In this document: positions 1,740 to 7,819 of the stretch, one piece after another
Layout of the letters: each line of letters opens with the position of its first letter
Position numbering within the stretch: position 1 is the first letter of the stretch
Assembly: GCF_001889405.1 (NCBI RefSeq)
Contig: NZ_CP017921.1
Span: 62,001 to 126,000 of the forward strand
Source of the DNA: Methanohalophilus halophilus
Lineage (GTDB): Archaea > Halobacteriota > Methanosarcinia > Methanosarcinales > Methanosarcinaceae
Length of the DNA stretch: 64,000 bases
Direction of reading: 5' to 3'
The notes under the pieces: generated by a model
The model's database searches: none
Told to the model about the DNA's origin: nothing
The model's input: only the letters and a program-made list of their open reading frames with translations
Position numbers and translations under genes: made by a program

Positions 1740-3083
1740 ATGACCGATAATACAGAGAAAAAAGTCATACCAGCAAAAGATGCCTCCATCAAACTTGCCA
1801 GCATAAATACACTCCTAAAAAATAAAGGGCTTGAAGCAATGGCAGAGGCCCTTGATCAAAATAGAAATTCGATACTTAAGGCAAACCGCAAAGACCTCGA
1901 ATATGCTGAGCAATTAAAAAACCAAGGGAAAATCTCACAGGCTCTTGTGGACAGGCTGAAAGTAAATGATAGCAAAATCGATGGAATGATCGCAGGTATA
2001 AGAGATGTCATGGAACTTGAAGACCCCACAGGCAAAACTCTCAGCTGCTTAGAGCTTGATGAGGGACTGGAACTGTACCAGGTAAGTTGTCCTATCGGCC
2101 TTATAGGGGTTATTTTCGAGTCACGTCCTGATGTTGTTCCGCAGATCATGTCCCTGTGCCTGAAAAGCGGTAATGCAACGATCTTTAAAGGTGGAAGTGA
2201 AGCCTTTAATTCAAATCGTACTATTTTCAACATACTTAAAGAAGCCATAGAAGAAATCGGGGATATTCCTGCAAAGGCCTTTCAACTGATGGAAACCCGG
2301 GAAGAGGTAATGGACATCCTGGCACTTGATTCCTATATAGACCTGCTCATACCTCGTGGTTCGAACGCTTTCGTGAAGTTCATACAGGATAATACCAGGA
2401 TACCTGTATTAGGTCATGCAGACGGGATATGTCATGTCTATGTGGACAATGAAGCAGACATAGAAAAAGCGATTGATGTCTGTTATGATTCAAAGGTACA
2501 GTACCCGGCAGTGTGCAATGCAATGGAAACATTGCTTGTAAACAGTGATATTGCAAGCAAGTTCCTGCCCGAAATGATCGAAAAATTCGTCAAAGCAGGT
2601 GTAGAGGTCCGGTTGGATGAGAAAACATACACTATTGCAGAAGATAAAGGCATCCGGGGTTTGAAAAAAGCATCCGAGGAAGACTGGAGTACCGAATATA
2701 ATGATTTGATACTGTCTGTGAAAATGGTTGATTCAATGAATGAAGCAATCGATCATATTAACAGGTACGGTTCCCATCATACAGATTGTATAGTTACTAA
2801 AAGCAAGGACAAGCGCCGTACATTTACCGAACTTGTGGATTCCTCAAGCGTCATGGTCAATGCCTCTACAAGATTTGCCGATGGCTTCAGGTATGGTAAA
2901 GGTGCAGAGGTTGGCATCAGCACAAACAAAATACATGCACGGGGGCCCGTAGGAATGGAAGGTCTTTTGATATACAAGTATATTCTTCTTGGAAATGGTG
3001 ACAGAGTATCCGATTATACCGGGGATAAGGCAAAAAAATTTACCCACAGAAAGCTGGATAAACAGATTAGTGACATTATTTGA
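1740..3083 (+). CDS. proA: Glutamate-5-semialdehyde dehydrogenase (gamma-glutamyl phosphate reductase)
   Basis: ProA reduces gamma-glutamyl phosphate with NADPH to glutamate-5-semialdehyde, the second step of proline synthesis. The 447 residues match the family length, with an aldehyde-dehydrogenase fold. The catalytic cysteine is C259 in PAVCNAMET, and the cofactor region has FESRPDVVPQ and LKSGNATIFKGG. The ATG at 1740 follows an AGGTG ribosome site. proB starts 17 bases after the stop, so the pair is an operon with the order proA-proB, the reverse of the common bacterial order. Few archaea carry this bacterial-type ProBA route; in Methanosarcinales it is usually regarded as acquired. No proC is seen nearby. 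Confidence 0.96.
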   Translation: MTDNTEKKVIPAKDASIKLASINTLLKNKGLEAMAEALDQNRNSILKANRKDLEYAEQLKNQGKISQALVDRLKVNDSKIDGMIAGIRDVMELEDPTGKTLSCLELDEGLELYQVSCPIGLIGVIFESRPDVVPQIMSLCLKSGNATIFKGGSEAFNSNRTIFNILKEAIEEIGDIPAKAFQLMETREEVMDILALDSYIDLLIPRGSNAFVKFIQDNTRIPVLGHADGICHVYVDNEADIEKAIDVCYDSKVQYPAVCNAMETLLVNSDIASKFLPEMIEKFVKAGVEVRLDEKTYTIAEDKGIRGLKKASEEDWSTEYNDLILSVKMVDSMNEAIDHINRYGSHHTDCIVTKSKDKRRTFTELVDSSSVMVNASTRFADGFRYGKGAEVGISTNKIHARGPVGMEGLLIYKYILLGNGDRVSDYTGDKAKKFTHRKLDKQISDII

Positions 3084-3100
3084 AATGATATCCGGGGATA

Positions 3101-4237
3101 GTGAGTTTGAGCAAAAGAAAAGTCATCCTTGACAACGCTAAAAAAGTTGTCATCAAAATAGGAACAACTTCCATAAGTAATGATTGTGGAGGATTGAATG
3201 AGGAATTCATGAAACATGTGGCCTCACAGATTGCATACCTCCACAGTCTGGAAAAAGAAGTCATTCTTGTTAGCTCTGGCTCCATTGGAGTGGGAATTGA
3301 CCTGATGCAACTTGGCTGTAAGCCACGGGAAATTCCGGTTCGACAGGCAGCAGCAGCCGTTGGTCAAAATATTTTGATGCAAAAATGGATGGAGGCTTTT
3401 AGTACTTACGATCTCAATGTTGCCCAGATTCTTTTGACCTACGACTCCTTCACCAGCAGGTTAACCTATCTCAACCTGAGAAACAGCATATCCACGTTAC
3501 TGGAATATGGGGTAATCCCAATTATCAATGAGAATGACAGTACCTGTGTGCACGAGATAGAAGCTACCCTTGGAGATAATGACAGGCTTTCCGCAATGGT
3601 TGCCAGTAAAATGGAAGCCGATTTGCTGATACTCCTATCGGATATTGATGGTTTATATGATAAAAATCCTAAAAGGCACAAGGATGCTGTATTACTGAAA
3701 ACTGTGTCTGAGGTTACACCAACTATAGAAAGTTATGGCGGGAGCCCTTCAAGTACAAAGGGTACCGGTGGCATGAGAACAAAAATAGATGCTGCCAAGA
3801 TATGCAATATCGCAGGCTGCCATATGGTAATTGCAAACAGTTCTATCCAAAACGCAATCCTCAAAATAATGGAAGGCGAAGAAATCGGCACCCTGTTTTT
3901 AGCTGAAGGAGAAGTACATAAGAACCGCATTCGATGGATTTTACTTGCTCATTCCTCAGGCACAATCGTGGTAGATGAAGGAGCCAGAGATGCGGTAAGA
4001 AACCGCATGAGTCTCCTGCCTTCGGGTGTAATTGGAGTGGATGGTGATTTTGATCGCGGAGATATAGTAAAGCTCGAGTGCAACGGGCAAGTATTCGGGA
4101 AAGGAATTACGGATTATACCTCAGATGAATTGCAGAAAATAAAGGGAAAACATACCAATATGATAGCAAATATCCTGGGATATAAAAATTATGATAATGT
4201 TCTAAATAAAGATAATATAGGGATTTTTAGAGAATGA
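3101..4237 (+). CDS. proB: Glutamate 5-kinase with PUA domain
   Basis: ProB phosphorylates glutamate to gamma-glutamyl phosphate, the committed and usually proline-inhibited step. The GTG start at 3101 lies 17 bases after proA. Residues about 1-260 form the amino-acid-kinase domain: VVIKIGTTS near the start, VSSGSIGVGID, INENDSTCV, and LLSDIDGLYDKNP. Residues about 285-365 form a C-terminal PUA domain (GTIVVDEGARDAV onward), as in the long bacterial ProB. Length 378 is normal. ProA and ProB are known to work together because the acyl-phosphate is unstable, which fits the tight spacing. Confidence 0.95.
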   Translation: MSLSKRKVILDNAKKVVIKIGTTSISNDCGGLNEEFMKHVASQIAYLHSLEKEVILVSSGSIGVGIDLMQLGCKPREIPVRQAAAAVGQNILMQKWMEAFSTYDLNVAQILLTYDSFTSRLTYLNLRNSISTLLEYGVIPIINENDSTCVHEIEATLGDNDRLSAMVASKMEADLLILLSDIDGLYDKNPKRHKDAVLLKTVSEVTPTIESYGGSPSSTKGTGGMRTKIDAAKICNIAGCHMVIANSSIQNAILKIMEGEEIGTLFLAEGEVHKNRIRWILLAHSSGTIVVDEGARDAVRNRMSLLPSGVIGVDGDFDRGDIVKLECNGQVFGKGITDYTSDELQKIKGKHTNMIANILGYKNYDNVLNKDNIGIFRE

Positions 4238-4238
4238 A

Positions 4239-4250
4239 TTAATATATAAG
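4239..4250 (+). promoter_or_regulatory. TATA box for a probably leaderless kinase gene
   Basis: TTAATATATAAG is centred about 26 bases before the ATG at 4271, so transcription should start at or next to the start codon. No convincing ribosome site precedes 4271. Together these suggest a leaderless mRNA. Confidence 0.5.
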
Positions 4251-4270: not shown

Positions 4271-5821
4271 ATGGCATCTGGATGTGGTGACATGCTTGAT
4301 GATATAATACCTACAATTGCCCTTATAAGCAGCAAAAATAACGATAAATTGCTAGGGTACCTGTCAGCATACAGGATACTACAAACAGAACCCAAAAAAG
4401 ATACTATTTCTTTTATCAAAAAAAATACACCGACTATAGTTATAATTGACAATACTGTACCTGAAGAGGTTAACTACCGCATTTGCAGGGAGCTTAAGCA
4501 AAATACAGGTAATCGATATCTCCCCATAATTATGGTCACCAAAACAGACAAAGAAGAGATAAGGGCAGCTCTTACAGAGGGGGCAGATGATTTCATAACC
4601 GACCAGTCCGATGATCTGGAAATTCTCACAAGAATCAATTCCCTGTTACAAATAAAGAACCTCTATGATAAACTTTCAAAAGAAAGGGATCAGGCACAGA
4701 CTTACATCGATGTTGCCCAAACAATAATAGGCGTAGTTGACAGGGACCTGAAAGTAGTACTTGCCAATAAAAAAGCTTCTGAAATTCTGGGGTATTCCCA
4801 GGAAGAAATTATAGGACAGAAATGGTTCGATGTCTTTTTGCCGGAACGAATAAGGGACATGATAAAGACCGGCTATAAAATGGTCCTGGAGGGGGAAATT
4901 GAACCTCCCGAATTCTCAGAAAAACCTATTCTTACACGTACAGGTGAAGAACGATTGGTTTTCTGGCATGATGTTGTGCTCAAAGACGATAAGGGGAAAA
5001 TCATGGGTACCATCAGTTCCGGTGAAGATATTACTGAAAAAAAACAGGCAGAAATGGCCCTTTTAGAGGCAAATAAAGAACTTCAGGAACTGGACAGCAT
5101 GAGAAATGAATTTCTCGCCAATATAAGCAAGGAATTACAAATACCTCTTGCATCCATCAAAGGTTTCAGCGATTTGCTCGCCAAAGGCGAGTTCGGGGAA
5201 ATTAATAGCAAGCAAAAAGACGCCCTGCTTACAATAAATAGAAATTGTGATAGGCTACAGCAACATGTCAATGCTCTTCTCTATGCCAGTGAAGACTTTA
5301 GTCAAAATGTGATATACAATTTTGAAGATACAGATATAAATTCCCTTCTCAACAAGACCCTGAATGACCTGACAATTAATTTTACAAAATATAACCTGAC
5401 ACTTGAAAGAAACCTAGAAAATATTCCACATATAAATGCTGATGAAAGACACCTGGAAAATGCTATTTTCCATATACTCGATAATGCAATCAAGTTTACT
5501 CCTGCAAATGGTAACATAAAAGTTTCCACCAGTAGAACAGGCAAATACGTCGAGATAAAAATAAGGGATTCAGGAATTGGAATAGCCAAAGACAAGTTAG
5601 AAAATATTTTTAAAAGTTTTTATCAGGTAGACGGTTCCACAAGAAGAAAATATGGAGGAACTGGCATTGGCCTCTACATCTGCAAGAAAATCATTGAAGG
5701 TCACAATGGTCAAATCCTGGTGAAAAGCTTAGAAGGAAAGGGTAGTGAATTCACAATTCAACTCCCGGTTCGCACCCGACCTGATCATACCACTACTGAA
5801 AGCCTGGCTGTTGCCCGCTAA
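4271..5821 (+). CDS. REC-PAS-HATPase sensor protein with degenerate phosphorylation sites
   Basis: The 516-residue soluble protein has a receiver-like domain (about 10-130), a PAS domain (about 145-265, ending GTISSGEDITEKK), a dimerisation/HisKA-like segment (about 277-345) and a HATPase_c domain (about 385-500). The ATP-binding boxes look intact: LDNAIKFTP, RDSGIGIAKD, YGGTGIGLYI. The usual SHELRTPL phosphoacceptor box reads SKELQIPL, so the histidine is replaced by K287 (codon AAG, 5129-5131). The receiver domain keeps a candidate acceptor Asp (IVIIDN) but lacks the N-terminal acidic pair and has Asp where the conserved Lys should be (FITDQ). No partner regulator is adjacent. It may be a pseudokinase or signal scaffold, or it may phosphorylate elsewhere. 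Start 4271 is supported by the TATA spacing; an ATG at 4292 is an alternative. Confidence 0.88.
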   Translation: MASGCGDMLDDIIPTIALISSKNNDKLLGYLSAYRILQTEPKKDTISFIKKNTPTIVIIDNTVPEEVNYRICRELKQNTGNRYLPIIMVTKTDKEEIRAALTEGADDFITDQSDDLEILTRINSLLQIKNLYDKLSKERDQAQTYIDVAQTIIGVVDRDLKVVLANKKASEILGYSQEEIIGQKWFDVFLPERIRDMIKTGYKMVLEGEIEPPEFSEKPILTRTGEERLVFWHDVVLKDDKGKIMGTISSGEDITEKKQAEMALLEANKELQELDSMRNEFLANISKELQIPLASIKGFSDLLAKGEFGEINSKQKDALLTINRNCDRLQQHVNALLYASEDFSQNVIYNFEDTDINSLLNKTLNDLTINFTKYNLTLERNLENIPHINADERHLENAIFHILDNAIKFTPANGNIKVSTSRTGKYVEIKIRDSGIGIAKDKLENIFKSFYQVDGSTRRKYGGTGIGLYICKKIIEGHNGQILVKSLEGKGSEFTIQLPVRTRPDHTTTESLAVAR

Positions 5822-5833
5822 AAATAAAAAGCA

Positions 5834-5857
5834 AAGAACAGTTTCAATCCTGTTCTT
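5834..5857. terminator. Bidirectional terminator hairpin
   Basis: A perfect 8-base stem (AAGAACAG / CTGTTCTT, 8-base loop) lies between the convergent sensor gene and the ccmF half-gene, overlapping the last codons of the latter. Confidence 0.6.
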
Positions 5858-6893
5858 CAAAATACCTTTTTGCAAGCAGCGATGTTCCCATAAGCGTAAT
5901 TCCTGCAAGGAATATACCTATTAAGAGGCCTTCTGCATTGAAATCCTGCCAGGAATGGACAGAAGCCCACATACCACTTCTCGTAACAAAAGTTGCAAAA
6001 ATTACAAGTATAAATGAGAAAATAGCCATTGCTGGCGCCAGGAACCTGAACTGTCCCTGCCTGCCGTATATTGTATGCAGATAAGCTGTCGCAGTTATCC
6101 AGGGAATTAATGAAGAGGTCTCAACCGGATCCCAGCTCCAGTACCATGCACCCCAGCCAAGTACCTCATAGGCCCAGAAACCACCCAGACCTATCCCTGC
6201 AGTCAGGAATAACCAGGAAACCCGCATCCAATTATTGGCTATTTTGCGCCAGCTGTTGTCATTAAGGAGCAAACCCGCAATAGCAGATGCAAAAGGAATA
6301 GTAAAAGCTGCATAGCCCAAAAAAAGGATGGGAGGATGGACGGCCATCCAGGGATTGCGAAGCAGCGGATTCATGCCCTGTCCATCTGTTAGGTGATAGG
6401 GATGGACAAACGGATTCCAGTTGCTTACCATAATGGAGCCGGCTTTTGAGTAATATACTGCAAACGGATTGTCAAGTACAAGCAGCATGAGGAATACCGA
6501 AAGAATACCCAGGGATAGTATCCTTGTGACCATGAATACATTTCCTTTGGAAAAGCGCAAGGAATACCTGAGAACCAGAAGCATAACCGAAATGGCCCAG
6601 GCCCACAACAAAAGAGAACCTTCCTGACCTGCCCAGAAAGCTGAAATACGATAGTATGTGGAAAGATCAAGACTGGAATGATTATAAACATACTCAAAGA
6701 ATGCAGCTACATCATAAAGATAGTATATCAGCATGACAGAAGCAGCTGTGACCAAAACAGTACAGGCAATTTCAAGTCTTAATGAAAGTTTCCGGTAATT
6801 CTCATCTTCCCTGCGAAAACCCAGGTATGAATAGACCATAGCAAACAAACCAAACAGAAATGCCACCCATATAATAATCATTCCAAAATTCAT
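5844..6893 (-). CDS. ccmF: CcmF N-terminal half (cytochrome c haem lyase, WWD protein)
   Basis: CcmF is the haem-handling core of System I cytochrome c maturation; it joins haem delivered by CcmE to apocytochrome c on the outer face of the membrane. This 349-residue protein is strongly hydrophobic (about nine membrane segments). It has the conserved GMNPLLRNPWMAVHPP segment with H186, the WWD motif WGAWYWSWDP (residues 247-256), and TRSGMWASVH with H313. These are features of the N-terminal half of a full-length CcmF of about 650 residues. The start ATG overlaps the stop of the upstream half-gene (ATGA), so the two are translationally coupled. Presence of CcmF implies c-type cytochromes, as in cytochrome-containing methanogens. 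Confidence 0.9.
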   Translation of the reverse strand: MNFGMIIIWVAFLFGLFAMVYSYLGFRREDENYRKLSLRLEIACTVLVTAASVMLIYYLYDVAAFFEYVYNHSSLDLSTYYRISAFWAGQEGSLLLWAWAISVMLLVLRYSLRFSKGNVFMVTRILSLGILSVFLMLLVLDNPFAVYYSKAGSIMVSNWNPFVHPYHLTDGQGMNPLLRNPWMAVHPPILFLGYAAFTIPFASAIAGLLLNDNSWRKIANNWMRVSWLFLTAGIGLGGFWAYEVLGWGAWYWSWDPVETSSLIPWITATAYLHTIYGRQGQFRFLAPAMAIFSFILVIFATFVTRSGMWASVHSWQDFNAEGLLIGIFLAGITLMGTSLLAKRYFEEQD

Positions 6894-7819
6894 GTGGCCA
6901 CCTCATTTTCATTGTCTGGTAGCACTGTACTTCCAAGGAGCAGTATTAACATACCACCAAGCATTATGTAAATACCAGCCCACAGAAAACTGATAAATGG
7001 AACTACCCGCAGATACAGATCAACTTCTCCGGATTTTTCATCGAGGGCTTTTGGGGCAATAAAAACCTCTTCCATGATTGCGCGGTTAATATAGGTAGAA
7101 GTATAGGTCTGTCTCCATTTTATATCGGTTATATACCTAACTGTACCCCTGTCAAACTCATTCCCGTTTTTGGAAATTATAAGACCAACATCCGTTGCAT
7201 ACGATGAACCGGGATAATTGTCATAGGGAGTACCTTCAAAACTTGAATCCATACCCATCACACTCACAGAATAAGGAATCCCCTCAAATGATGTTTCTTC
7301 ACCAATGCTAACTACAGCTGAATCTTCTACTTTCATTGCCGAACTGAAGATGGTGCCGAATATCACCAGCAAAATCCCAATATGGATAATGTGGGCACCT
7401 ATTCCCTTGAAACGTGATTTGCCACTGCGTTTTCTGATAACATGAACCAAGCGGTACAGGGATGCCGCAAAAACAGCAAGCATGGGAATTATAGAAATGT
7501 CTACAAGCAGTTTCCCGGTAGGAGAAAACACTGCCATGAGTACAGACAATAAAACTATACTTCCAAGCAGGATACCAATATACCTGCTGGAGATATGGGT
7601 GACAAGCAGGCAGGCACATAGCAGGATTACAAGTAAACCGGCAATCGGTGCTGCCCTGTTATTGAAATATGTTGCATCCATACCTATTTGCATACCGCTT
7701 AAAAACTGAACCACAAGGGGTGTCAGCATTCCAATTGTTATCAAAGCTGCAAGTGCCCCGAATGCTGTCACTGTTACAAAGATAAGGTTTTTTCTGGAAA
7801 TGAGGTTTTGTAGATCCAT
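6890..7819 (-). CDS. CcmF C-terminal half-like membrane protein
   Basis: This 309-residue membrane protein has four N-terminal hydrophobic segments, one more at about 145-160 (AHIIHIGILLVIFGTIF), then a long extracytoplasmic domain (about 165-275) and a final membrane segment. The GAHIIHIG segment with conserved His and the following beta-rich domain resemble the C-terminal half of CcmF. It is transcribed before, and overlaps by 4 bases, the gene for the N-terminal half. The halves are therefore separate proteins encoded in inverted order relative to a full-length ccmF. Assignment to CcmF is by hydropathy, motif and context and is less certain than for its partner. Confidence 0.75.
   Translation of the reverse strand: MDLQNLISRKNLIFVTVTAFGALAALITIGMLTPLVVQFLSGMQIGMDATYFNNRAAPIAGLLVILLCACLLVTHISSRYIGILLGSIVLLSVLMAVFSPTGKLLVDISIIPMLAVFAASLYRLVHVIRKRSGKSRFKGIGAHIIHIGILLVIFGTIFSSAMKVEDSAVVSIGEETSFEGIPYSVSVMGMDSSFEGTPYDNYPGSSYATDVGLIISKNGNEFDRGTVRYITDIKWRQTYTSTYINRAIMEEVFIAPKALDEKSGEVDLYLRVVPFISFLWAGIYIMLGGMLILLLGSTVLPDNENEVAT

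Follow-up and report, generated by a model that had tools for sequence, protein, structure and literature searches.

The window analysed here, a stretch of 64,000 nucleotides from the one-contig 2.02 Mb genome of Methanohalophilus halophilus (G000; M. profundi and M. sp. RSK are related to it at 91% identity), contains a gene, hereafter gene A, which encodes a soluble sensor kinase-type protein with the architecture REC-PAS-HisKA-HATPase. Pfam assigns a receiver (37.7 bits), a HisKA domain (44.3 bits) and an HATPase_c domain (106.4 bits) to this protein, and a PAS_4 domain is also matched. The features of the locus, numbered by position in the window, are as follows.

1740 to 4237, + strand: proA and proB, the conserved neighbours upstream of A, which together with mcrBDCGA mark the orthologous locus
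4240 to 4249, + strand: TATA-like element TAATATATAA upstream of A, of putative function, kept in five Methanohalophilus species
4271 to 5821, + strand: gene A as the open reading frame was given, 516 aa from the ATG at 4271; the His-less half of the proposed pair
4286 to 4290, + strand: GGTGA, ribosome-binding-like, directly before the ATG at 4292, kept in five species
4292 to 5821, + strand: gene A as read from its likely true start, the ATG at 4292, 509 aa; start kept in five Methanohalophilus
4316 to 4645, + strand: degenerate receiver of A, without the acidic pair and with Asp for Lys (Pfam; omega 0.40)
4715 to 5044, + strand: PAS_4 sensor domain, under the strongest constraint within A (Pfam; omega 0.07)
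5099 to 5290, + strand: HisKA (DHp) dimerisation domain of A (Pfam)
5129 to 5131, + strand: codon AAG (Lys), where the phosphoacceptor His of A would be expected (sequence and orthologue alignment)
5441 to 5773, + strand: HATPase_c (CA) domain of A with N, G1, F and G2 boxes intact (Pfam and motifs; omega 0.17)

Gene A had been described as leaderless in the first-pass annotation, a description which does not survive comparison among five Methanohalophilus. The ATG at 4271 is found only in this strain, none of the four close relatives having it; the ATG at 4292 and the GGTGA preceding it are kept in all five. The conservation of this second start together with GGTGA and the TATA-like element suggests that A probably has a short leader, so that Lys287 in the longer numbering becomes Lys280, and the likely protein is 509 aa long with Lys280 at the acceptor site. 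Directly after A, at 5844-7819 on the minus strand, lies a CcmF-like gene for a cytochrome c biogenesis protein, assigned to this family by reading its sequence, which consists of two overlapping ORFs (349 and 309 aa) and is conserved in Methanohalophilus.

A kinase-type protein without its phosphoacceptor His

The H-box of A reads SKELQIPL, in which Lys (K287, codon AAG at 5129-5131) occupies the position of the phosphoacceptor His and is followed by the catalytic Glu, while the N, G1 (DSGIGI), F and G2 (GGTGIGL) boxes are all intact, both as the first-pass annotation had stated. The same annotation had called the receiver degenerate, which holds for the acidic pair (replaced by SS) and for the conserved Lys (replaced by Asp), with the qualification that this strain retains the Thr and the phosphorylation-site Asp; the latter is G, N or A in other orthologues. 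The genome contains 23 HisKA domains, and A is its only HisKA kinase without His: the other HisKA kinases that were aligned all carry it, as does the paralogue B described below, which was inspected separately. An alternative acceptor His was not found in the H-box region of the His-less A orthologues, and the nearest His, 45 residues beyond the H-box, does not lie at one fixed position in distant orthologues. A structure predicted for A by itself (mean pLDDT 74.7, pTM 0.40, with most CA blocks at 86-94) matches HK853, ZraS, WalK and DivL best (Z about 24); the prediction confirms the kinase fold and bears on neither the dimer nor the cis or trans geometry.

Seventeen orthologues of A were compared, from five Methanohalophilus, a divergent member of that genus group (G006), another genus (G019) and ten species of a genus, g3, which is probably Methanococcoides. 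In the orthologous genomes, which span three genera, A directly follows mcrBDCGA-proA-proB (in G019, mcr falls outside the short contig read), and an A-like gene was not seen beside proA-proB in those other genera of the family whose loci were read. The residue at the acceptor position is K in G000 and G007 (2/17), R in G001, G003, G005 and G006 (4/17), Y in G019 and six g3 species (7/17) and H, with codon CAT, in the g3 species G067, G069, G070 and G071 (4/17). The ATP boxes, by contrast, are intact in 17/17. The variability of the site beside the constancy of the ATP boxes suggests that what matters is losing the His, not gaining the Lys. A Lys selected as such is thus unlikely, since the alignment of homologues that had been proposed as its test gives K, R, Y or H, with His surviving in four Methanococcoides-like species.

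It had also been proposed that His in the homologues would mark the Lys as a sequencing error or an isolated mutation. His is present in four of the 17 and a residue other than His in 13, from three genera and under purifying selection, and both possibilities are ruled out. Judged from its sequence, A is a maintained protein incapable of phosphorylating itself at the usual site. The earlier suggestion of a pseudokinase scaffold or an ATP-gated sensor therefore stands as far as a maintained protein without self-phosphorylation at the usual place is concerned, but it missed a reciprocal partner elsewhere in the genome. In the four g3 species which have both His and CA, A could be an ordinary self-phosphorylating kinase.

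Paralogue B and the reciprocal pattern of loss

Gene B (G000:C1:803471-804934, minus strand) lies outside the window, 737 kb from A, and encodes a protein of the same architecture; A and B are each other's best other match in the genome. The receiver of B is canonical (VDD, LLD, T, LKP) and its H-box, SHELRTP, is intact in G000, while it has lost the G1 box, the ATP lid and the G2 box. HELRTP is found in 18/18 B genes and the G2 box and ATP lid in 0/18; all 15 B sequences that were aligned keep the receiver Asp. The G1 box has also been lost throughout Methanohalophilus and in G006 and G019. The N and G1 boxes are kept in g3, so the ATP site there may be only partly dead. Pfam scores agree with the motifs, with B at 76.9 bits for REC and 27.8 bits for HATPase, and with HisKA at about 45 bits in A and B alike. 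B is the only HisKA kinase in G000 with a ruined CA (29.9 bits in this comparison), the next lowest HisKA-linked score being 87.5 bits when 37.8-class matches are set aside.

The losses in the two proteins are thus complementary: CA is intact in 17/17 A and His is present in only 4/17, whereas B has the H-box in 18/18 and the G2 box and lid in 0/18. In the species of the window, His and ATPase lie on different polypeptides, each of which is defective in the function of the other; in G067, G069, G070 and G071, where A has its His, B alone is defective within the pair. The reciprocal loss in B suggests a kinase that has been split yet remains active, not one that is dead, although a scaffold reading keeps some probability.

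Two further features of B are noted here. In the g3 proteins (L181, L183-L191), a stretch containing Cys, e.g., ESDICCTNRDYGLIICKK, stands in place of the lid/G2 region and is possibly a metal or redox feature. Two B genes, both from draft genomes, have frames altered near the C-terminus, within the already ruined CA, by a frameshift in L178 (G005) and a stop in L182 (G071).

Selection on the two genes is mirrored, with the receiver relaxed in A and the ATPase relaxed in B. Within Methanohalophilus, the omega values of A (PAS 0.07, DHp 0.25, CA 0.17, receiver 0.40) indicate purifying selection, and those of B (REC 0.13, DHp 0.11, CA 0.36) show the reverse order. In g3, omega of the CA is 0.12 (0.08-0.17) for A vs. 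0.26 (0.20-0.35) for B, with separate 95% ranges. These values bear on the proposal that A and B are simply two kinases in slow decay, with no joint function and a mirror pattern that arose by coincidence. Such decay would be in keeping with the altered frames of the two B genes and with the genome G004, which lost A and B along with other kinases; however, both proteins are under purifying selection in patterns that differ by domain and the parts kept are invariant over three genera, and we consider coincidental decay very improbable.

In trees of the PAS-DHp region, A forms one clade (99/96) and B another (89/83), and the species order matches between them. Both group with a set of seven proteins (HI; L011-L013 and L096-L099) in which His and CA are both intact. 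Support for placing HI next to A is moderate (83/90), so the duplication may predate A and HI together, or the root may be misplaced. With HI as the outgroup, the His states of A need two changes on a tree read by eye, i.e., two losses or a loss and a regain, the latter with His restored in the four species, and these two histories are equally parsimonious. The HI kinases are without the N-terminal receiver of A; they represent the undivided type or else form a lineage of their own.

Seventeen genomes carry both A and B. Only B is present in G066, a genome which is 76% complete and in which proB, the neighbour of A, is also absent. Both genes are missing from G002, without trace, and from G004, which is closely related (97% identity in proB). 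In G004, a 250 bp relic of A (87% identity, with an internal stop) lies between proB and ccmF (L234:7878-8127, minus strand), and two remnants of B, one of 195 bp (92%) and one of 58 bp (86%), lie beside a ygiQ-like gene (L254:5148-5381). This joint loss is suggestive of a tie between A and B; however, it is weak evidence because many other kinase genes are gone from the same genome, which has 20 HATPase genes vs. 30 in its relatives, i.e., about a third lost.

Further signalling genes of G004 are broken, namely an HTH-REC regulator (orthologue of L136, G000:C1:1856337), which is split by a frameshift and has a truncated kinase next to it (L286:2994-3508 and L287:1292-3518), and a hybrid kinase (orthologue of L145); these reflect either wide loss or draft errors. 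With its relics at the native loci, G004 amounts to a naturally occurring knock-out of both members of the proposed pair.

A proposed split histidine kinase

From the complementary loss, mutual closest kinship, co-occurrence, mirrored selection and order of loss described here, we infer a heterodimer acting in trans; its target and its signal are likewise putative. We lean modestly towards the reading that A is the ATPase half and B the His half of a split histidine kinase, with A phosphorylating B in trans. The accompanying history, in which gene duplication and complementary decay of domains turned an archaeal HisKA kinase into the two halves of an obligate heterodimer, with intermediates having His in both proteins in Methanococcoides-like species, we hold to be evenly balanced.

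In this proposed history, a REC-PAS-HisKA-HATPase kinase would have been duplicated before Methanohalophilus, the Methanococcoides-like species and the third related genus split. Copy B would then have lost its ATP-binding machinery and retained its His and receiver Asp, while copy A would have retained its ATPase as its receiver decayed and, in most lineages, its own His was replaced by Y, R or K. The G2/lid loss of B is common to all lineages and the His loss of A is patchy, suggesting that the loss in A probably came later. Such an order is expected if the His of A became useless once the CA of B was dead, because the reverse reaction was then gone and this His was free to drift.

The two proteins would be joined through their DHp helices, and the CA of A would phosphorylate the His of B. 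A trans heterodimer would have two possible reactions, the CA of A acting on the His of B and the CA of B acting on the His of A; all losses would fall in the latter reaction, and all retained parts in the former. One live reaction is left only if phosphorylation is in trans, as in cis both would be dead, and a cis-acting enzyme would not be complemented by A plus B. In the laboratory, trans action is usually tested by complementation, for which a His mutant is mixed with one defective in the ATP site (PMC5956149).

From B, the phosphate could pass to the receiver of B itself, the nearest downstream candidate in Methanohalophilus, or to a free REC protein. Many REC-only proteins are encoded in the genome of the window, and those of Methanosarcina, also many, are thought to be hubs (PMC11784639). 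A conserved response regulator adjoining A or B was not seen in the neighbourhoods read, and a phyletic profile for a cognate response regulator singled none out, this profile being blurred by the loss of many kinases in G004. The HExxT motif of B could make it a phosphatase as well, which would fit the phosphatase capacity of CheA3 (PMC3591291).

Natural split kinases are represented by CheA3/CheA4 of Rhodobacter sphaeroides, and split HisKA kinases have been predicted, HisKA proteins without HATPase making up about 3.7% in SMART (PMC3591291). As proposed for A and B, CheA3/CheA4 have kinase and phosphoacceptor on two proteins, and the His protein has phosphatase capacity (PMC3591291, PMC6829392). 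However, CheA3 and CheA4 are of the CheA type, miss whole domains and act in chemotaxis, whereas A and B are archaeal full-length paralogues of the HisKA type with short losses, unlinked genes and an N-terminal receiver. B resembles the predicted split HisKA kinases and carries the HExxT motif noted for them (PMC3591291). While those were predicted as single proteins, a matching ATPase half has been identified in the case of A and B.

The HK1 and HK2 proteins of Mycobacterium tuberculosis (Rv0600c/Rv0601c), which work with TcrA, also have the ATP-binding and His halves separate and are encoded by neighbouring truncated genes, whereas A and B are full-length paralogues at distant loci. Their cooperation with TcrA has been described (PMC9274095).

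Known proteins also provide models for A and B acting otherwise. A could be a pseudokinase like Caulobacter DivL, and B a phosphotransferase like ChpT or Spo0B, the two acting independently or within a single relay, and B in neither case being phosphorylated by A; A would sense through its PAS domain, bind a response regulator or kinase at its DHp and act allosterically, and B would be fed by a receiver. DivL, a PAS-DHp-CA protein, has Tyr in place of the phosphoacceptor His, keeps its HK boxes and works without kinase activity (PMC4211667); in A, the His is likewise replaced with the HK motifs kept, the replacement is Tyr in seven orthologues, and DivL is one of several kinases whose structures the model of A resembles. 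ChpT, for its part, retains the DHp His but has no working ATP lid in its CA (PMC3433190). B is similar in that its G2 box and lid are lost in 18/18, ATP binding here being judged from the motifs, which are mixed in that g3 keeps N and G1. DivL binds ATP weakly. However, the CA of A is intact in 17/17 and held at an omega of 0.12-0.17, beyond the needs of a scaffold. A also has a reciprocal paralogue, and ChpT and Spo0B are fed by a receiver, whereas the proposed feeder of B is A. The DivL/ChpT model gives no reason why the sole His-less and the sole ATPase-less kinases should be mutually closest, co-occurring paralogues, and we regard it as unlikely, if worth serious consideration.

Another model is offered by the MA_type 2 proteins RdmS and MsmS of Methanosarcina acetivorans, which belong to the same archaeal family and are ATPases without a usable His: RdmS binds and hydrolyses ATP, is not an autokinase and has been proposed to act on another substrate (PMC11784639). 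A, with its ATP boxes kept, could similarly be an ATPase, or a kinase with another substrate, without any tie to B. The MA_type 2 kinases, however, are without the entire H-box region, whereas A is a HisKA kinase (44.3 bits) which keeps the Glu next to the lost His and whose sister species still have the His itself. Another substrate would also leave the reciprocal loss in B unexplained, and this possibility appears quite improbable.

Split kinases have been characterised mainly from one chemotaxis system, and those of the HisKA type were predicted from lone His proteins without partners (PMC3591291). If the split reading is true, A and B are a natural version of the laboratory complementation test between a His mutant and an ATP mutant. 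Both halves and the intermediate stages exist in living species, which makes the passage from a self-contained enzyme to an obligate pair directly testable. A kinase dismissed as dead for want of its His may be the active half of such a pair. The split reading also offers a possible answer to why methanogens have many orphan and some His-less sensor kinases, some of which may be halves of pairs.
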